A stretch of 33,513 nucleotides of DNA, from assembly GCF_030651595.1 (NCBI RefSeq), contig NZ_JAUSCH010000024.1, forward strand, positions 1 to 33,513, written 5' to 3'. Positions 22,430 to 30,305 of the stretch are shown piece by piece. Every line of letters begins with the position of its first letter. Positions within the stretch are counted from its first letter, which is position 1. Source of the DNA: Candidatus Oleimmundimicrobium sp. GTDB taxonomy: Bacteria; Actinomycetota; Aquicultoria; UBA3085; Oleimmundimicrobiaceae. The notes below the pieces were generated by a model. The model worked only from the letters and a program-made list of their open reading frames with translations, searched no databases and was not told the DNA's origin. Position numbers and translations under genes: made by a program.

Positions 22430-22505
22430 GGGCCGTTAGCTCAGTTGGTAGAGCACCGGACTTTTAATCCGGGTGTCGAAGGTTCGAGTCCTTCACGGCT
22501 CACCA
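22430..22505 (+). tRNA. tRNA-Lys (TTT)
   Basis: 76 bases including an encoded CCA. Acceptor GGGCCGT pairs with ACGGCTC (one G-T). Anticodon stem CCGGA/TCCGG encloses CTTTTAA, giving anticodon TTT. T loop TTCGAGT is normal. Confidence 0.96.
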
Positions 22506-22565
22506 TTTTTAGTGATATGGAATTAAGTAACCATATTGCTATGTTAGTAGCTAAGTATCGAGCAT

Positions 22566-22641
22566 GCCCCCATCGTCTAGGGGCCTAGGACACAGCCCTT
22601 TCAAGGCTGCGGCGGGGATTCGAATTCCCCTGGGGGCACCA
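22566..22641 (+). tRNA. tRNA-Glu (TTC)
   Basis: 76 bases with encoded CCA. Acceptor GCCCCCA/TGGGGGC is perfect. Anticodon stem CAGCC/GGCTG encloses CTTTCAA, giving anticodon TTC. T arm GGGGA-TTCGAAT-TCCCC. Confidence 0.96.
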
Positions 22642-22645
22642 ATTT

Positions 22646-22697
22646 AGGGAATTGAAATGGGTGACGCCAGGCATTCCTCCTGGTGGGGCACCAATTT
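22646..22697 (+). pseudogene. Remnant of a tRNA 3' end after tRNA-Glu
   Basis: GGGGCACCAATTT occurs at 22633-22645 (end of tRNA-Glu) and again at 22685-22697. The second copy is preceded by CCAGG-CATTCCT-CCTGG, a 5-7-5 stem-loop with T-arm geometry but a wrong loop sequence. No 5' half is present. It could be a decayed duplicate of the tRNA-Glu 3' half or an old integration scar. Nothing else is recognised up to 22800. Confidence 0.5.
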
Positions 22698-22800
22698 GAA
22701 TAGTCGGGTGTACGGAGTCGATAGTAAAATTAAAATAAGGTTTTATAATAATAAAAAAGCTTTCACTCTTGACTTTGAACTAATAAACTATAGATTAATG

Positions 22801-22875
22801 GGGCGATTGGCTCAGCGGGAGAGCACCTGCCTTACAAGCAGGGGGTCGCAGGTTCAAATCCTGCATCGCCCACCA
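22801..22875 (+). tRNA. tRNA-Val (TAC)
   Basis: 75 bases with encoded CCA. Acceptor GGGCGAT/ATCGCCC is perfect. Anticodon stem CCTGC/GCAGG encloses CTTACAA, giving anticodon TAC. T arm GCAGG-TTCAAAT-CCTGC. Confidence 0.96.
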
Positions 22876-22970
22876 AAAAGGCAGTTTATGGTTAGTGGTT
22901 TATGGTAAAAGAGCATTTAAGAGTTTTTGTTTATGAACTATCAACTATTTTCACTATTAACCAAAGTTTT

Positions 22971-23049
22971 GGGGGCGTGGTGTAGCCTGGTTTAACACAC
23001 TGGCCTGTCAAGCCAGAGATCGCGGGTTCAAATCCCGTCGCTCCCGCCA
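22971..23049 (+). tRNA. tRNA-Asp (GTC)
   Basis: 79 bases with encoded CCA. Acceptor GGGGGCG/CGCTCCC with one G-T pair. Anticodon stem CTGGC/GCCAG encloses CTGTCAA, giving anticodon GTC. Discriminator G73 fits tRNA-Asp. Confidence 0.96.
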
Positions 23050-23138
23050 CATTAGTTACATAGATACATAGTAACTTGCTAACATAGTTTTTTATAGTTC
23101 AATGTCACTATGTTGCTATGTGGCCAGGTATCTTTTAC

Positions 23139-23214
<76 letters not shown>

Positions 23215-23363: not shown

Positions 23364-23687
23364 ATGGAAGACTTGCAAGTTGGTTGTGGGATTAAAACAA
23401 AAAAATTAAAGGAACTGGCGGAGTATTTGAAAATCATTTCCGATGAAAATCGATTGAAAATTTTGTGTTTCCTAAAACACGGAGAACATTGCGTGTGTAA
23501 AATTAACGAGGTTCTTAATCTTCCCCAGAATCTCACATCACATCATTTAAAAATCTTACGTGAAGCGGATTTTGTAATTGCCAGGCGTGAAGGTAGATGG
23601 ATTCATTATCGTTTAAACAATAAAAAAATCCGTTATTTAATGGAGCTTTGTCAAAAGAATATTTTGGGAGGGAAAAGTGGAGATTAA
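23364..23687 (+). CDS. ArsR/SmtB family metal(loid)-responsive repressor
   Basis: A 107-residue winged-helix repressor. The fold runs KELAEYLKIISDENRLKILCFLKHGEHCVCKINEVLNLPQNLTSHHLKILREADFV. Cys43 and Cys45 in HCVCKI occupy the helix-3 position of the ELCVC metal site used for arsenic, antimony, lead or cadmium; Cys8 near the N-terminus is a possible third ligand. RRREGRW-like wing residues (ARREGRWIHYRL) follow. The start is ATG 23364 after GAGGTG. It overlaps the next gene by 11 bases and presumably represses its own operon through the repeat at 23321-23355. Confidence 0.9.
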   Translation: MEDLQVGCGIKTKKLKELAEYLKIISDENRLKILCFLKHGEHCVCKINEVLNLPQNLTSHHLKILREADFVIARREGRWIHYRLNNKKIRYLMELCQKNILGGKSGD

Positions 23688-23910
23688 ATTATTGGGAACG
23701 GGCTGTTTAAACTGTAAAAAACTTGAGGCAAATACCGTCGAGGCGATTACAAAACTTGGAATTGATGCAGAGGTTGAGAAGGTAACCGATATTGTCGAGA
23801 TAATGAGCTATGGTATTCTTTCGGTCCCCGCGCTTGTGGTTGACGGGGAAGTTAAAGTAAGTGGCCGGATACCTAGCGTTAATGAAATTATGAATCTTTT
23901 AAAGGTATAA
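23677..23910 (+). CDS. Small thioredoxin-like CxxC protein (MTH895/TM0996 type)
   Basis: A 77-residue single-domain redox protein with the active-site motif GTGCLNCKK (Cys10, Cys13) after the first strand and the cis-Pro segment LSVPALVVDGEV. It is the size of the redox-active disulfide protein 2 family rather than of full thioredoxin. GTG 23677 overlaps the end of arsR and has GGGAGGG upstream. Between an ArsR repressor and an ArsP-like permease, a role in reducing the metal(loid) or the permease cysteines is plausible but not shown. Confidence 0.88.
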   Translation: MEIKLLGTGCLNCKKLEANTVEAITKLGIDAEVEKVTDIVEIMSYGILSVPALVVDGEVKVSGRIPSVNEIMNLLKV

Positions 23911-23912
23911 TT

Positions 23913-24866
23913 ATGTGGCAGAATGCAGTTAATTGGTTAATTTATGATTTGTTGGGATTAGATAAAAGCTCACTTTTTGGCGGAGCGGTAAATTTTTTCA
24001 TCTACGATGTTGTGAAAATTATTTTCTTACTTTTCGTAATCATATTTAGTGTTAATATAATTCGCTCGTTTTTGCCACCCGAAAAAATCAAGGAGATGCT
24101 TGCCGGTAAAAATAAGTATGTTGGGAATGTGCTTGCGGCTCTCTTTGGGATAGTGACCCCGTTTTGTTCATGCTCAGCGGTACCCCTTTTTATAGGATTT
24201 GTTGAGTCAGGGATACCTCTTGGAGCAACATTTTCTTTTCTTATTGCTTCGCCGGTAATTAACGAGATTGCTCTCGGACTCTTATGGAATTACTTTGGCT
24301 TAAAGATTGCCCTTATATACATTGTCTCGGGTTTACTTATCGCCATATTTGGAGGCGTTGTTATCGGTAAGCTTGGTCTCGAGGATTGGGTTGAGGATTT
24401 TGTATATCAAATTAAAGTAGGTAAAAGCGTAAGCCGGGCCGCAAAACTTACTTTTAAAAAGCGCTCTAAGGATGCTTGGATTTACACATTTGGATTGGTT
24501 AAGAAAATCCTTCCTTATATTGTGCTCGGAGTAGGCGTAGGCGCTTTTATTCACGGTTACGCGCCGGAGGATTTGCTGGTGCGTATTGCGTCAAAATCAA
24601 ATCCATTCACTGTGCCGGCTGCGGTTTTAATCGGTGTCCCGCTCTACTCAAATGCTGCCGGGACCATTCCGATTGTGGTGGCCCTCATAGAGAAAGGGGT
24701 CCCTATGGGCACAGCGCTTGCTTTCATGATGGCGGTAACTGCTTTAAGTCTTCCTGAGATGATAATTTTGCGCAAAGTCTTGAAGAAGCCGTTGCTCGCG
24801 ACATTTTTTGGCATCGTCACAATCGCCATTATTTTTACCGGTTATCTCTTTAATATGTTGATTTAA
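23913..24866 (+). CDS. ArsP-like permease (COG0701, DUF318)
   Basis: A 317-residue integral membrane protein with about eight helices in two halves. The first half holds the family signature TPFCSCSAVPLFIGFVESG (about residues 82-100), with two conserved cysteines of ArsP-type permeases; the second half holds VLIGVPLYSNAAGTIPIV. ArsP members export trivalent organoarsenicals; others in this broad family have unknown substrates. It starts 2 bases after the mini-thioredoxin. With the arsR-type regulator this makes a metalloid resistance unit likely, but the exact substrate is open. Confidence 0.87.
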   Translation: MWQNAVNWLIYDLLGLDKSSLFGGAVNFFIYDVVKIIFLLFVIIFSVNIIRSFLPPEKIKEMLAGKNKYVGNVLAALFGIVTPFCSCSAVPLFIGFVESGIPLGATFSFLIASPVINEIALGLLWNYFGLKIALIYIVSGLLIAIFGGVVIGKLGLEDWVEDFVYQIKVGKSVSRAAKLTFKKRSKDAWIYTFGLVKKILPYIVLGVGVGAFIHGYAPEDLLVRIASKSNPFTVPAAVLIGVPLYSNAAGTIPIVVALIEKGVPMGTALAFMMAVTALSLPEMIILRKVLKKPLLATFFGIVTIAIIFTGYLFNMLI

Positions 24867-24912: not shown

Positions 24913-24941
24913 TTGACACAAGACTCTTTTTCGGGTTAAAT
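24913..24941 (+). promoter_or_regulatory. Promoter of the Fur-family operon
   Basis: TTGACA (24913-24918), 17 bases, TTAAAT (24936-24941; 4 of 6). It is immediately followed by the Fur box and sits 37 bases before the regulator start. Confidence 0.65.
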
Positions 24942-24960
24942 AATAATGAGAATCATTATC
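24942..24960. promoter_or_regulatory. Fur box
   Basis: AATAATGAGAATCATTATC matches the classical 19-base Fur consensus at 17 of 19 positions (mismatches at positions 1 and 9). It directly follows the -10 hexamer, over the expected transcription start, so iron-loaded regulator would repress the operon. Confidence 0.85.
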
Positions 24961-24977
24961 AATAAAGGAGACAAGAG

Positions 24978-25430
24978 ATGCCAGGTCCGAGATGGAGAGG
25001 AAACTTTAAAGAACGTGGTCATAGAATAACCGCTTCAAGGAGTGCTATTTTAGACGTTTTAAGTAAAAAGCGTGGTCATCTAACTGCCGAAGATGTTTTT
25101 TTTGAAGTGAGAAAAATACAGAGAGGGATAGGTATTGCAACCGTTTATAGGACATTAGACCTTCTGGTGCAGATGGGTTTGGTTTGTAAGTTCGATTTTG
25201 GTGATGGCAGAGCCAGGTATGAGCTTGCCTCTGGCAAAAAAGGGCATCACCACCATCTCATATGTAGAAATTGTGGTCGGATAATTAATTACGATGATTT
25301 TTTAACCGAGGAAACCGGCCTTGTTAAAAAAATAGAGAAGGAATTGAGTCAAAAACATGGTTTTAAGATAGACGCTCATCAATTGGATTTTTATGGTTTG
25401 TGCAAGGATTGCCAAAAGGAGGTGAAATAA
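24978..25430 (+). CDS. Fur-family metalloregulator
   Basis: A 150-residue Fur/PerR/Zur family repressor. The winged helix spans about residues 10-80 (GHRITASRSAILDVL, HLTAEDVFFEVR, GIGIATVYRTLDLLVQMGLV). The dimerisation/metal domain starts with HHHHLICRNCG: His90-93, Cys96 and Cys99, paired with Cys142 and Cys145 (CKDC) as the structural zinc site. The start is ATG 24978 after AAGGAG. The Fur box at its own promoter suggests autoregulation and iron sensing, although sequence alone does not separate Fur from PerR or Zur. The ATG of the next gene follows its stop directly. Confidence 0.92.
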   Translation: MPGPRWRGNFKERGHRITASRSAILDVLSKKRGHLTAEDVFFEVRKIQRGIGIATVYRTLDLLVQMGLVCKFDFGDGRARYELASGKKGHHHHLICRNCGRIINYDDFLTEETGLVKKIEKELSQKHGFKIDAHQLDFYGLCKDCQKEVK

Positions 25431-25670
25431 ATGTCTGGATTCAATGGAACGGGACCAAGGGGTGAAGGGCCAATGACGGGCGGAGCAAGAGGATATTGCG
25501 CGCTACCGTATGAAAGCTATGCTGCCTCAGGGGGTGCTTATCCCGTTAGGCCGATGTCTTCGTTGCTTGGCGCGCCAAGACCGTATTCATACGCAAGGCC
25601 TCGTTTAGGTCTCGGTTTTCGTCGAGGCGGAGGTTTTGGACGCCGAGGTGGTTGTGGAAGACGGTTTTAA
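25431..25670 (+). CDS. DUF5320-type Gly/Arg-rich small protein
   Basis: 79 residues, beginning with the family motif FNGTGPRGEGPMTGG and a conserved RGYC. The rest is low-complexity: Tyr/Pro/Ala in the middle and a Gly/Arg tail GGGFGRRGGCGRRF. No signal peptide or membrane segment. The function of DUF5320 is unknown; members occur in anaerobes. It starts at the base after the Fur-family stop and so belongs to the same transcript. The first 70 or so bases are closely similar in DNA to those of the next gene, indicating duplication. Confidence 0.8.
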   Translation: MSGFNGTGPRGEGPMTGGARGYCALPYESYAASGGAYPVRPMSSLLGAPRPYSYARPRLGLGFRRGGGFGRRGGCGRRF

Positions 25671-25701
25671 ACTTATTTAATAATTAAAGGAGGCGATTTT
25701 T

Positions 25702-26037
25702 ATGCCAGGATTCAATGGAACAGGGCCAAGAGGCGAAGGGCCTATGACGGGCGGAAGACGAGGAAATTGCTCACCGTCTTACGGAGCAGATTATCCAAGC
25801 AGACCCCGCGGAGGTTTTGCGCCGGGAGGCAGGGGATATAGAAACATGTATTACGCAACAGGCCAACCGGGTTGGGCGCGTTTTGGCTACAGTCCCGGCC
25901 GGGGTCAAGGAGCGGGAGCAGTTTCTCAAGAGCCGGGAACAGAAAAAGAACTTCTTAAAGAAGAGGCGAGTTTGTTAAAAGAGCGTTTGGATGTGATAGA
26001 AAAACGTCTAAATGAAATCAAGGAAAGTGCCGAATGA
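25702..26037 (+). CDS. DUF5320 protein with C-terminal coiled coil
   Basis: 111 residues. It begins with the same FNGTGPRGEGPMTGG motif, followed by RRGNC and a Gly/Tyr/Arg-rich stretch up to about residue 70. The C-terminus (about 78-108) is a charged helix, KELLKEEASLLKERLDVIEKR, with heptad Leu/Ile spacing, typical of the longer DUF5320 members. The start is ATG 25702 after AAAGGAGGCG. Its stop overlaps the radical SAM start by 4 bases (ATGA). The function is unknown; the coiled coil suggests it oligomerises. Confidence 0.85.
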   Translation: MPGFNGTGPRGEGPMTGGRRGNCSPSYGADYPSRPRGGFAPGGRGYRNMYYATGQPGWARFGYSPGRGQGAGAVSQEPGTEKELLKEEASLLKERLDVIEKRLNEIKESAE

Positions 26038-26963
26038 ACTATGTTTACGGCCCTGTTCCTTCCAGAAGATTAGGGTTCTCGCTCGGTGTTGATATAATTC
26101 CCTTCAAAATTTGCAGTTATGATTGTATTTATTGTCAGCTTGGCAAAACTACTTTAAAGACGGTTGAGCGGAAAGCATATGTTTCTTCTCAAGATGTTTT
26201 AGAAGAATTAGCTCTTTATTCGTCTGAATTTAAGGGACAAATTGATTATATTGCTTTTTCCGGGAGCGGGGAACCCACATTAAATAGCGAGATAGGAAAG
26301 ATGATAAGAGGGGCTAAAAACCTAACTTCCATTCCGGTTGCCGTGCTCACAAACGGATCCATTTTCTTCAACAAAGATGTGCGAGAAGATTTAATGGAGG
26401 CCGATGTTGTGCTCCCTTCTTTAGACGCGATTACATCTTCGATTTTTCAAGCGGTAAATGTGCCTTGTCCATCTCTTAAAATAAGGGATATTATCGAAGG
26501 GTTGTGCTCTTTTATCAGAGAATTTAAGGGCGAAGTTTGGCTGGAGGTTCTTCTTTGCCGAGGGATAAACGATGGCGAAAAGGAGCTTGAGAGAATTAAA
26601 GAAGCTGTAGAATTGATAAAACCCAATAAAGTTCAGTTGAACACAGTTGTTCGACCATCGGGTCGAGGAGAAGTTTATCCTCTTAACTATGCGGAATTAG
26701 AAATCGCAAGAGAAATTATCGGGAATAATTGTGAGATTATAGCTGATTTTAAGGGTATGTCCGAGAGATTGTTTACAAAAGATGTTAGAGAAGAAGAAGT
26801 TTTAGCTCTTCTCAGACGAAGGCCTTGCACGATTGGAGATATTTCAAAAGTTTTAGGGGTTAATAGGTTGGAATTGATTAAGTATATTGAAATGCTAAAT
26901 AAAAAAGGCAAATTAAAAAGCATTACTAAAGACGGAAAAATATATTATTATTCTAAGGGTTAA
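26034..26963 (+). CDS. Radical SAM protein (COG0731 type) with C-terminal winged helix
   Basis: 309 residues. After YGPVPSRRLGFSLGVD comes the Fe4S4 motif CSYDCIYC with Cys27, Cys31 and Cys34, followed by QLGKTT. The barrel continues with IAFSGSGEPTLN (the GGE-like SAM motif), VAVLTNGS, LPSLDA, EVLLCRGIND and KVQLNTVVRPSGRG. From about residue 250 an added domain (EEEVLALLRRRPCTIGDISKVLGVNRLELIKYIEML) looks like a helix-turn-helix. The family is related to TYW1 in the core but its bacterial substrate is unknown. Translational coupling to the DUF5320 gene suggests a joint task. Confidence 0.88.
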   Translation: MNYVYGPVPSRRLGFSLGVDIIPFKICSYDCIYCQLGKTTLKTVERKAYVSSQDVLEELALYSSEFKGQIDYIAFSGSGEPTLNSEIGKMIRGAKNLTSIPVAVLTNGSIFFNKDVREDLMEADVVLPSLDAITSSIFQAVNVPCPSLKIRDIIEGLCSFIREFKGEVWLEVLLCRGINDGEKELERIKEAVELIKPNKVQLNTVVRPSGRGEVYPLNYAELEIAREIIGNNCEIIADFKGMSERLFTKDVREEEVLALLRRRPCTIGDISKVLGVNRLELIKYIEMLNKKGKLKSITKDGKIYYYSKG

Positions 26964-27000
26964 AAAAGTAACTTAAAAATTTTATTAAAGGAGAATTTAA

Positions 27001-27852
27001 TTGAAAACGTGTTTAGACTGCATTTCGTGCTTTTTTAGGCAGGCGCTGGAAGCTTCCAGGATGGTTTCCGATGATGAAGCTCTTCATAAGGAAATTTTGC
27101 AAGAGGTTGCTAAAGAGTTTTCAAATATTTGTCTCGATGAATCACCTCCTTCAATTTCGCGGCGGGTACATAAAATAGTTCGCGATTTAACGGGAAATCC
27201 CGATCCTTATAAGGAAGTTAAACGTAAATATAATCAGATGGCTCTGGGGCTTTACCCTCAATTAAGAGAAAGAGTTTTAAAATCGGACGATCCTCTCCTT
27301 ACTTCAATAAGGATGGCAATTGCGGGAAACATCATAGATTTTGGGGTTGGAAATTCTTTTGATGTTGAAAAAGAAGTTGAAGAAGCTTTTCATAAAGAAT
27401 TTGCTACGCTCGACTATTCTGAATTTTGTGATTTCATTGAAGATTCTGAAGAAATACTTTATCTTGGCGATAATGCCGGCGAGGTTGTATTTGACCGGCT
27501 TTTGATTGAGGTTATTGAGAGTATGAATAAGCGGGTAGTTTATGCGGCGCGGGGCGCGCCTATCATAAACGATGCTACATTGGATGACGCTAAAGAGTGT
27601 GGAATTCATGAAAATGCAACTGAGTTGATTTCAACCGGTTCGGATGCGCCGGCCACTGTTCTTGAGTTTTGCTCACCCGATTTTATTGATAGGTATGAAA
27701 ATGCCCAGATGATAATAAGTAAGGGCCAGGGTAATTTTGAGGCGTTGTCTGGTGAAAAGAAGCCAATCCTTTTCCTTTTTAAAGTCAAGTGTCCCGTTGT
27801 CGCTAAAAATATAAATCATAAGGTTGGCGACATGGTTTTATCCAGAGGATGA
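27001..27852 (+). CDS. DUF89 (ARMT1-like/COG1578) protein
   Basis: 283 residues. The N-terminus MKTCLDCISCFFRQ carries Cys4, Cys7 and Cys10, usual in the prokaryotic DUF89 subgroup. The core shows SIRMAIAGNIIDFG, YLGDNAGEVVFDRLLIE, AARGAPIINDATLDDA and MIISKGQGNFEAL, the residues that bind metal and phosphate. DUF89 proteins are proposed metal-dependent phosphatases of damaged metabolites. The start is TTG 27001 after AAAGGAG, 37 bases after the radical SAM gene. The final residues (LSRG) and stop come from a 30-bp repeat, so the original C-terminus may have been replaced. Confidence 0.88.
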   Translation: MKTCLDCISCFFRQALEASRMVSDDEALHKEILQEVAKEFSNICLDESPPSISRRVHKIVRDLTGNPDPYKEVKRKYNQMALGLYPQLRERVLKSDDPLLTSIRMAIAGNIIDFGVGNSFDVEKEVEEAFHKEFATLDYSEFCDFIEDSEEILYLGDNAGEVVFDRLLIEVIESMNKRVVYAARGAPIINDATLDDAKECGIHENATELISTGSDAPATVLEFCSPDFIDRYENAQMIISKGQGNFEALSGEKKPILFLFKVKCPVVAKNINHKVGDMVLSRG

Positions 27853-27865: not shown

Positions 27866-27968
27866 TGGGTCAGAAGTTTTAAAATAGGCATAAAATATAG
27901 CACTTAAAAATAGTTTATCAGGGCAAGTTTTTGTTCTGGTTTTCTTGTTTTTTTTAGAGCTGTTATTA

Positions 27969-28058: not shown

Positions 28059-29396
28059 ATGAAAAATAAAATCACGGGTAAACTGAAAAGAAATGTGGGT
28101 TTTATGTCAGCGGTTTCCATAAGTATGGGGACGATGATAGGGGCCGGAATTTTTGTTCTTCCTGGAATCGCAATAGCTAAAGCGGGGTCTGGTGCCATAA
28201 TTTCCTTTGCTATTGCCGGACTAATTGCTCTAACCGCTGCTTTATCGGCAAGCGAGCTTGCGTCGGGAATGCCTAAAGCCGGTGGAAGCTATCACATTAT
28301 CAATCGGAGTTTGGGGCCGGCTATCGGTTCTGTAGCGGGTTGGGGGAGCTGGGTAGGTCTGGTTTTTAAAGGTTCTTTTGCCGTAGTTGGTTTTGCTTAT
28401 TATTTTGCACTTTTTGTCCACTTACCCGTGGTTCCTGTGGCAATAGCGGCAATTGTTTTTTTGACTTTCATAAATGTCGTGGGAGCAAAAGAAAGTGGAA
28501 CCACCCAAATTCTAATGGTTATCGGGTTGCTGATTATATTGGTTGTTTTTACCGGTTGGGGTTTTTTTGAAGTTAATTTTTCTAATTATAAACCTTTTCT
28601 TCCCTATGGTTGGGATTCTGTCTTTATGGTGGCCGGTCTGGTTTTTGTTTCTTATGTCGGGCTTATAGAAGCTTCGGCAATAGCTGAAGAGATAAAGAAC
28701 CCTCGAGAAACAATTCCCAAAGCAATTATTCTGTCTACAATTATAGTTATTCTCCTTTACGTTTTGGTAATGTTTGTGGTTGCGGGCGTTGCTCCCCACG
28801 GATTTTTTGCGGGGACGGAGACCCCTGTTGTGAAGGCGGCTGAGATTTTTATGGGAAATACCGGCATGACGATTTTGGCCTTTGCAGGTCTTTTGGCGAC
28901 CCTTTCTACGGGGAACGCTGTAATTTTATGTTCACCGAGGTATTCGTTTGCAATGAGCAGAGATGGATTGATGCCGGATTGGCTGAGTGAAGTTCACGGC
29001 AAATTTTATACGCCGTATAAATCTATTCTTGTAACCGCAGGGGCGATGATTTTATTGGTTCTTTTTGTCGATGTTATCGGTTTGGCGGAGCTTGCCAGCG
29101 CTTTTAACTTGGTGCTCTTTTCACTCATCAACGTCTCGGTAATATTAATGAGAGTCAACAAACCCCTCTGGTTTAAGCCCTCGTTCAGGTCTCCGGGTTA
29201 TCCCTTGGTGCAGACTATAGGAACGATTGCCTCTTTGAGTTTAATACCGGCGATGGGAGCAATGCCAACGATTGCGGCCCTCCTGTTCATTTTTGGTGGC
29301 TTGAGCTGGTATTATCTGTGGGGTAGAGACAGGATAGAAAATAAGAGCGTGGCTTTGGATATCTCCAGGGGTCTAAGAGCCAGGATGGCGTTGTGA
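28059..29396 (+). CDS. APC superfamily amino acid permease
   Basis: 445 residues with about 12 transmembrane helices. The N-terminus VGFMSAVSISMGTMIGAGIFVLPG is the unwound helix-1 substrate site of APC transporters, followed by FAIAGLIALTAALSASELASGMPKAGGSYHII, and helix 6 region VSYVGLIEASAIAEEIKNPRETIP. The C-terminus is short. The substrate is probably an amino acid or amine; specificity cannot be read. The start is ATG 28059. It is followed after 3 bases by a universal stress protein gene, a pairing known for APC transporters, which may carry Usp domains or partners as regulators. Confidence 0.9.
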   Translation: MKNKITGKLKRNVGFMSAVSISMGTMIGAGIFVLPGIAIAKAGSGAIISFAIAGLIALTAALSASELASGMPKAGGSYHIINRSLGPAIGSVAGWGSWVGLVFKGSFAVVGFAYYFALFVHLPVVPVAIAAIVFLTFINVVGAKESGTTQILMVIGLLIILVVFTGWGFFEVNFSNYKPFLPYGWDSVFMVAGLVFVSYVGLIEASAIAEEIKNPRETIPKAIILSTIIVILLYVLVMFVVAGVAPHGFFAGTETPVVKAAEIFMGNTGMTILAFAGLLATLSTGNAVILCSPRYSFAMSRDGLMPDWLSEVHGKFYTPYKSILVTAGAMILLVLFVDVIGLAELASAFNLVLFSLINVSVILMRVNKPLWFKPSFRSPGYPLVQTIGTIASLSLIPAMGAMPTIAALLFIFGGLSWYYLWGRDRIENKSVALDISRGLRARMAL

Positions 29397-29399
29397 AGA

Positions 29400-30305
29400 A
29401 TGGATGAAATTAAAAACTGCCCGGTTGATGAAGGACATTACAAGATTTTGCTTCCGCTTAGAGGGACAAAATATAGTAAACATTTAATCTCCATAGCGTG
29501 CGCGATTGCTAAAAAAAGGAATGGGAGAATTTTGGCCGTAAAAATGATGAAGTTATCTCCCTCGGTTTCTTTCTCTTCACGAATGGGGATGTTGGGGGAC
29601 GAATTAAGAGAGACTGAAGAGATGTTGAACCAAATTGTTGAGGACTGCCGGGGATTTGGTGTTGAGGCCGAAGCCACATTAATTTCTTCTTATTCTCCAA
29701 AGAAAGACATATTAGAGCTGGCCGAAAAAGAAGGTTGTAATCTGATAGTGCTTGAATGGAAGGGGAAACTTGGAAGGGTTAAGGTGCTGGAAAACGTGGA
29801 AGAGTGGATTATGCAGCATGCTTCTTTCGACGTTGTGGCATTTAAAAATAATAAGGGAATAAAAGAGATAAATAAAGTGTTGGTGTCAACCCCCATTGGA
29901 CCGCATGCGGAGTTTACTGTTTCAATTGCGGGTAGCATTGCTGAACTTGTCGGTGCCGAGATTTCTTTCTTTAGGGTTATAAACCCAAGGGCCAATAAGG
30001 AAGAGGTTAAAATAATTGAAGGTTACCAAAACAAACTTGCAAATGTGTCTGGTGTATCGACCGACACGGGAAGTCGTAAGAGTTCAAAAGTAGCTGAGGA
30101 GATAGTTCGCGAAACGGAAGGACATGACCTTGTGGTCATGTCCGCTTCGGGCGATTGGGTTTTTAAAAGCATTGGTTTTGGCTCATTGCCCGATGAGGTT
30201 ATCAGAAAAGCTAAAAGTTCCGTCATTATAGTTAGAAAAGGGATATCAAAGCGTGAAAGTTGGTTTAGAAGGATTAGATATACCATCTGGAAGAAGATAT
30301 TTTGA
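29400..30305 (+). CDS. Tandem universal stress protein (two Usp domains)
   Basis: 301 residues. The first Usp-like domain is about residues 15-150 (ILLPLRGTKYSKHLISIACAIAKKRNGRILAVK) and the second about 158-290 (VLVSTPIGPHAEFTVSIAGSIAELVGAEISFFRV), ending with HDLVVMSASGDWVFKSIGFGSLPDEVIRKAKSSVIIVRKG. The GxxG-9x-G(S/T) ATP loop is only partly kept (GDWVFKSIGFGS), and the first domain lacks it. With the preceding permease it probably forms a bicistronic unit and may regulate transport. The last residues, ESWFRRIRYTIWKKIF, are encoded by a direct repeat starting at 30263, so the C-terminus may be a secondary extension. Confidence 0.85.
   Translation: MDEIKNCPVDEGHYKILLPLRGTKYSKHLISIACAIAKKRNGRILAVKMMKLSPSVSFSSRMGMLGDELRETEEMLNQIVEDCRGFGVEAEATLISSYSPKKDILELAEKEGCNLIVLEWKGKLGRVKVLENVEEWIMQHASFDVVAFKNNKGIKEINKVLVSTPIGPHAEFTVSIAGSIAELVGAEISFFRVINPRANKEEVKIIEGYQNKLANVSGVSTDTGSRKSSKVAEEIVRETEGHDLVVMSASGDWVFKSIGFGSLPDEVIRKAKSSVIIVRKGISKRESWFRRIRYTIWKKIF

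Follow-up and report, generated by a model that had tools for sequence, protein, structure and literature searches.

The window analysed here is a stretch of 33,513 nucleotides (contig NZ_JAUSCH010000024.1) from the 1.63 Mb genome of Candidatus Oleimmundimicrobium sp. It harbours a compact cluster of five genes, coding for a Fur-family regulator, two small proteins of the Pfam family DUF5320 (hereafter DUF5320a and DUF5320b), a radical S-adenosylmethionine (SAM) protein and a DUF89/ARMT1-like phosphatase, preceded by a promoter with a Fur box (Table 1). Our analyses suggest that this cluster is probably a Fur-controlled iron–sulfur handling module, a variant of the IssA and ORP type, in which DUF5320 would act as a free-standing cationic tail for binding or oligomerisation.

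Organization of the locus

An initial annotation of this DNA had placed a 17/19 Fur box on the promoter of the cluster, and our analysis bears this out: the box lies behind an exact consensus -35 hexamer, with a putative -10 element, TTAAAT, at about 24936-24941. Shuffling gave an expectation of 0.04 matches of this quality per window, no second Fur box with up to two mismatches occurs in the whole genome, and an upstream alignment of four family members shows conservation of TTGACA, TTAATAAT and the Fur box amid variable spacer and flanking sequence. Because it is the sole genomic site within two mismatches and belongs to a block kept in four genomes, the box at 24942-24960 is beyond chance. 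An additional candidate Fur target on contig C56 (three mismatches) lay inside a serine acetyltransferase-like gene and was taken as a chance match, a reversed-pattern control having likewise given one match.

The gene calls agree with the spacing annotated previously: the stop of the regulator abuts the ATG of DUF5320a, DUF5320b overlaps the radical SAM gene by 4 bases, and DUF89 follows 37 bases downstream from a TTG start. Plausible ribosome-binding sites precede the operon genes, radical SAM having the weakest; the gap between the radical SAM and DUF89 genes (26964-27000) showed no promoter-like site, and an Rfam search of the region returned tRNAs only. A single transcript through the cluster is presumed. 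Terminator-like hairpin patterns were no more frequent than expected (2 found against 5.1), hence the hairpin listed in Table 1 is by itself no evidence of where the unit ends.

Table 1 Features of the Fur/DUF5320 cluster (positions in the window)
Feature	Position	Strand	Basis
-35 hexamer TTGACA, exact consensus	24913..24918	+	invariant in four family members
Fur box AATAATGAGAATCATTATC, 17/19	24942..24960	+	consensus match; 16-17/19 at the equivalent place in three relatives
Fur-family regulator, DUF5320-linked subgroup, N-terminal tail MPGPRWRGNF	24978..25430	+	PF01475, 118 bits (cut-off 23.1)
DUF5320a: GTGP N-terminal tag and Gly/Arg/aromatic cationic tail, without coiled coil	25431..25670	+	PF17253, 21.7 bits, sub-threshold
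DUF5320b: GTGP tag, Gly/Arg stretch, YYATGQPGWARFG motif, C-terminal coiled-coil-like helix	25702..26037	+	PF17253, 69.8 bits
Radical SAM protein, single CX3CX2C cluster site and C-terminal winged helix	26034..26963	+	PF04055, Radical_SAM, 53.5 bits
DUF89/ARMT1-like metal-dependent phosphatase, TTG start	27001..27852	+	PF01937, 242 bits
Weak terminator-like hairpin 3' of DUF89, possible end of the transcription unit	27917..27940	+	pattern match

The order Fur, DUF5320a, DUF5320b, radical SAM, DUF89 is identical in three relatives, G001, G002 and G003 (the named relatives being metagenome-assembled genomes of Actinomycetota), while a fifth family member, G004, lacks both radical SAM and DUF5320. 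In G003 and G001 two extra genes, missing in the window and in G002, separate DUF5320b from the radical SAM gene. The first codes for a conserved small uncharacterised protein of about 75 residues (L016:1900-2181, L018:10913-11203), and the second for an IssA-like NifX protein (PF02579) whose Gly/Arg-rich C-terminus (…FPGGGRGGGMGHGKGRGRF; …FGGGRGMGRGGGKGRRGF) closely resembles the end of DUF5320a (…FRRGGGFGRRGGCGRRF).

Recurrence of predicted Fur control

When compared with equivalog models, the window regulator scored best with Bacillus-type Fur (127.9 bits, the cut-off of that model being 220), followed by PerR (89) and Zur (47). Its gene sits behind its own 17/19 box in an arrangement conserved in four genomes, as in Fur-autoregulated iron operons; it differs from these in that the co-regulated genes are not iron uptake genes and in the N-terminal tail of Fur, which is Gly/Arg/Trp-rich and in some genomes is the DUF5320 tag.

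A survey anchored on DUF5320 only covered 47 loci from two other phyla, 46 of them scorable. Fur was the immediate upstream gene on the same strand in 14 of the 46, and 15 had a box of at least 15/19 no more than 300 bp ahead of DUF5320, where dinucleotide shuffles predict 0.18; several loci (L180, L193, L198, L199 and L207) carry boxes ahead of both Fur and DUF5320. Throughout 1.2 Mb of neighbourhood sequence, all sites of at least 16/19 directly precede either a DUF5320-linked Fur gene or DUF5320. This adjacency, together with the excess of upstream boxes, points to recurrent Fur control of DUF5320; the adjacency and the boxes recur in Actinomycetota as well as in the two phyla to which a Thermodesulfovibrionales and a Spirochaetales genome belong.

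The DUF5320-linked Fur proteins have in common a short Gly/Arg/Trp N-terminal tail, which is absent from the second Fur of the window genome, encoded beside FeoAB. At several loci of the G197 phylum this tail comes near the DUF5320 tag itself (e.g. MPWRDGTGPPWWHGKF), and in four proteins (L040:371-844, L170:2713-3183, L171:941-1414 and L172:1871-2380) the Fur N-terminus is the DUF5320-type MPWRDGTGPPW or close to it.

DUF5320 proteins and their genomic partners

DUF5320a falls below the Pfam cut-off (27 bits) as a divergent relative, and shares the whole N-terminal motif with DUF5320b. Its composition is strongly cationic (isoelectric point, pI, 11.1; 20 Gly, 12 Arg and 10 aromatic residues of 79), the pI of DUF5320b being 9.2, and no PF02579/IPR003731 domain was detected in either protein by Pfam search. 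A local DUF5320 profile matched 88 distinct proteins, with an [DN]xTGP motif in 76, a GxC motif in 75 and a single cysteine in 56; a coiled-coil-like helix closes the longer form.

Domain fusions give the strongest evidence for the nature of DUF5320. A NifX domain and a DUF5320 region, both over the Pfam cut-off, occur in one protein at L019, L057, L165 and L049, and just under it at L091; at L184:1572-1913 an N-terminal DUF5320 tag is fused to a 2[4Fe-4S] ferredoxin, and the GTGP-type tag is also found on small zinc-ribbon proteins. In a sample of 197 relatives, taken here as raw genome counts without correction for relatedness, DUF5320 exceeded the cut-off in 16, all of which carry PF02579, a domain present in 57-59 of the 197 (57 over the cut-off). 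The radical SAM family was found in 18 relatives, again always with PF02579, including 13 of the 16 with DUF5320. The three others (G039, which is 98% complete, G098 and G180) possess DUF5320 without a detectable radical SAM homolog, and in G141, the sister of G039, an Mrp-metallo-beta-lactamase (MBL)-radical SAM segment is inserted into an otherwise equal cluster. Raw counts from the phyla of G197 and G198 likewise show each family without the other: 8 of 44 DUF5320-bearing genomes have no radical SAM homolog, and within the G198 phylum the radical SAM family occurs in 31 of 36 genomes with DUF5320 and in 19 of 28 without. Of those 44 genomes, 11 have the two genes no more than 15 kb apart, a number far above chance.

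Homologs of the radical SAM protein were surveyed at 84 loci. Two groups of Mrp/MinD-type ATPases each occur at 30 of these, MBL-fold proteins at 21, an FmdB-like zinc ribbon at 19, NifX and DUF89 at 16 each (DUF89 next to radical SAM and co-oriented with it at nine) and a PF01883 iron–sulfur assembly protein at 7. Many other contexts are unrelated to DUF5320, so the radical SAM family is a broad one. A neighbourhood survey had been suggested as a check on the initial annotation, and the association of DUF5320 with radical SAM and DUF89 does recur across genomes. Elsewhere in Actinomycetota the cluster comprises DUF134, DUF5320, Mrp, MBL, radical SAM, NifX, DUF5320/zinc ribbon, NifX, two ferredoxin-type MinD ATPases and sometimes DUF89. 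In the window genome itself, contig C120 (L022:7738-14390) codes for DUF134, two NifX proteins, two ferredoxin-type MinD ATPases, the second Fur, FeoA, FeoB and Mrp, and is a probable partner in trans of the window operon; no Fur box above 14/19 was found in its FeoAB/Fur2 cluster.

The radical SAM and DUF89 proteins

Among 60 homologs of the radical SAM protein, C27, C31 and C34 of the CX3CX2C site are the only universal cysteines; neither auxiliary-cluster cysteines of the type found in SPASM enzymes and in those acting on ribosomally synthesised and post-translationally modified peptides (RiPPs), nor the extra cysteines that hold precursor clusters in NifB, are conserved. The AlphaFold model (predicted local distance difference test, pLDDT, 91) folds residues 253-307 into a predicted helix-helix-helix-strand-strand winged helix, and no PqqD-like RiPP recognition element was found in it. 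Fold matches were generic (viperin, pyruvate formate-lyase (PFL)-activase, NifB and TYW1, with template modelling (TM) scores of about 0.55-0.6) and no solved-structure relative was found by sequence. An identity as NifB, TYW1, MoaA or viperin was rejected on these matches and on NCBIfam scores far below the cut-off, and none of the specific NCBIfam families suits the protein. The DUF89 protein matches the solved archaeal homologs 2FFJ and 2G8L end to end and resembles ARMT1-like/DUF89 damage-control phosphatases over its full length. To our knowledge, these phosphatases have no link to iron–sulfur handling.

Comparison with known iron–sulfur systems

A close parallel to DUF5320 is IssA (PF2025) of Pyrococcus furiosus, in which a NifX domain is followed by a cationic Gly/aromatic tail with a pI of 10.7 (PMC5524996). 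The NifX domain of IssA binds iron and sulfur and its tail is proposed to wrap anionic thioferrate; the protein is produced when iron and sulfide abound, and it reconstitutes the clusters of ferredoxin (PMC5524996). A cationic Gly/Arg/aromatic tail is also present in DUF5320a, as judged by composition, and a NifX partner of the IssA/IssX kind is fused to DUF5320 in several relatives and encoded within the operon in G003 and G001. Unlike IssA/IssX, the window DUF5320 proteins lack a NifX domain and have a conserved GTGP N-terminus, to which DUF5320b adds a coiled-coil-like helix, and their operon is under predicted Fur control, whereas IssA is produced with excess iron and sulfide. DUF5320 thus probably represents a free-standing form of the IssA-type cationic tail.

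A second parallel is offered by the Desulfovibrio ORP and MrpORP proteins (Fe–S and Mo–Cu clusters), since Mrp/NBP35 and ferredoxin-containing MinD-type ATPases accompany NifX-type proteins in the clusters of relatives and on C120 (PMC6345978, PMC3897727). Fe–S clusters are transferred by MrpORP, which binds one through its Di-Nase domain (PMC6345978). In the window genome, MinD-type ATPases, NifX and Mrp are encoded together on C120 and not in the window operon. The orp operons differ in being controlled by sigma54, DVU2106 and integration host factor (IHF), not Fur (PMC6345978, PMC3897727). The portions of these two accounts that were read mention neither DUF5320, nor a radical SAM protein of the window type, nor ARMT1. 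Our literature searches, which did not cover subscription literature, found no paper on the function of DUF5320, a family named in just two unrelated papers, and none joining Fur, DUF134 and NifX clusters. At the level of sequence, the recurrent Fur adjacency and boxes give good support to the earlier proposal that the system responds to iron and has as yet no described function.

Proposed function and alternative explanations

The predicted Fur box would cover the transcription start, a repressor position implying repression when iron is plentiful and expression when it is scarce. Under this scheme, Fur-Fe would bind the box and silence the operon in iron plenty, and the module would be made in scarcity. 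DUF5320 would then bind anionic iron-sulfide or cluster species, or a related metallocluster, electrostatically, would multimerise through its C-terminal helix, and would work with the NifX and Mrp/MinD-type carriers encoded beside FeoAB on the other contig; the radical SAM protein and the ARMT1-type phosphatase would be optional accessory enzymes. Such expression fits a role in assembling or trafficking clusters when iron is limiting better than one in storage.

Several observations weigh against this interpretation. A Fur box is missing from over half of the DUF5320 loci surveyed, and the window's own operon has no NifX gene. Storage by DUF5320 itself fits poorly, because IssA accumulates with excess iron and sulfur while repression by Fur would have the module made when iron is scarce. 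The Arg/Gly tail could also bind other anionic ligands, including nucleic acid, and we know of no direct biochemistry for any DUF5320 protein.

The initial annotation had suggested that the DUF5320 proteins could be substrates of the radical SAM enzyme or handle metal for it. As RiPP-like substrates they would carry a recognition leader in the GTGP N-terminus and modifications in the Gly/Arg/Cys tail, and the 4 bases that DUF5320b shares with the radical SAM gene, the joint presence of both families in 13 of 16 relatives, and a constant N-terminus ahead of a variable Gly-rich remainder, reminiscent of leader and core, are what such a system would look like. We nevertheless regard it as decidedly unlikely. 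DUF5320 is kept without a detectable radical SAM homolog in G039, G098, G180 and 8 of 44 genomes of other phyla, auxiliary-cluster cysteines are missing, the C-terminal domain is modelled as a-a-a-b-b and thus not PqqD-like, and in G003 and G001 the radical SAM gene adjoins NifX and not DUF5320. The constancy of NifX and Mrp as partners, and the fusions to NifX and ferredoxin, favour instead, from sequence comparison, the metal-handling alternative.

Two further explanations concern the place of the radical SAM gene. One would have its product use a NifX-type scaffold to build or modify a complex iron–sulfur cofactor, DUF5320 serving as carrier, in a split NifB/NifX-like pathway comparable to the role of NifB for nitrogenase. 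NifB is indeed among the best fold matches (7JMB, 7BI7, 6Y1X) and shares the CX3CX2C core and NifX as a partner, NifX is present in all radical SAM-bearing relatives, and in both G003 and G001 its gene is the one immediately ahead of radical SAM. The match is generic, however, viperin and PFL-activase scoring equally; the protein lacks the further cysteines and the NifX fusion of NifB and has an extra winged helix, and shared Fe–S handling explains the requirement for NifX equally well, so that this pathway appears rather unlikely. The other holds that the locus is a general metal-stress or Fe–S repair island in which Fur controls only itself and DUF5320, radical SAM and DUF89 being unrelated passengers. 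Such an arrangement, which we judge unlikely, would account for a radical SAM family that is common with or without DUF5320 in the G198 phylum and found in many contexts unconnected with it. It sits poorly with the equal order and tight spacing maintained in four family members, with the proximity of both genes in 11 of the 44 DUF5320-bearing genomes from other phyla, and with the position of DUF89 next to radical SAM or DUF5320 in several lineages.

The reading as a Fur-controlled iron–sulfur module may be extended, tentatively and with more doubt than conviction, to a scheme where DUF5320 is a modular iron-sulfide-binding tail placed on or beside a NifX/IssA scaffold, ferredoxin, zinc ribbon or Fur, and where Fur, through its own Gly/Arg/Trp or GTGP tail, reads iron–sulfur species held by the scaffold instead of free iron. 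Activation of Escherichia coli Fur by a [2Fe-2S] cluster, in an IscU-dependent manner, has been reported (PMC11001641), and by speculative analogy a Fur whose gene stands with those of NifX/DUF5320 partners could be loaded similarly.

Flanking genes

Directly upstream of the cluster (23364-24866) lie genes for an ArsR-family regulator, an MTH895/ArsE-type thioredoxin and an ArsP-type permease, which hold the equivalent place in G002; five tRNA genes stand in a row on the plus strand upstream of this ArsR operon (22430-23211). Downstream, an amino-acid permease (28059-29396) and a universal stress protein (29400-30305) occupy two frames in the window, where G003 and G001 have one open reading frame of 751-752 amino acids (L016, L018), reflecting either a recent split in the window genome or an assembly error.

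Conclusions

The Pfam family DUF5320 gains from these results a testable role and a regulator, and direct Fur control, as predicted from sequence, is linked in several lineages to the IssA/NifX and Mrp systems by which anaerobes, the window organism presumably among them, handle iron–sulfur. This bears on the storage, traffic and sensing of iron–sulfur in strict anaerobes. Should the tail prove to be a shared module even on Fur, there would be a physical link between sensing iron sulfide and handling it.

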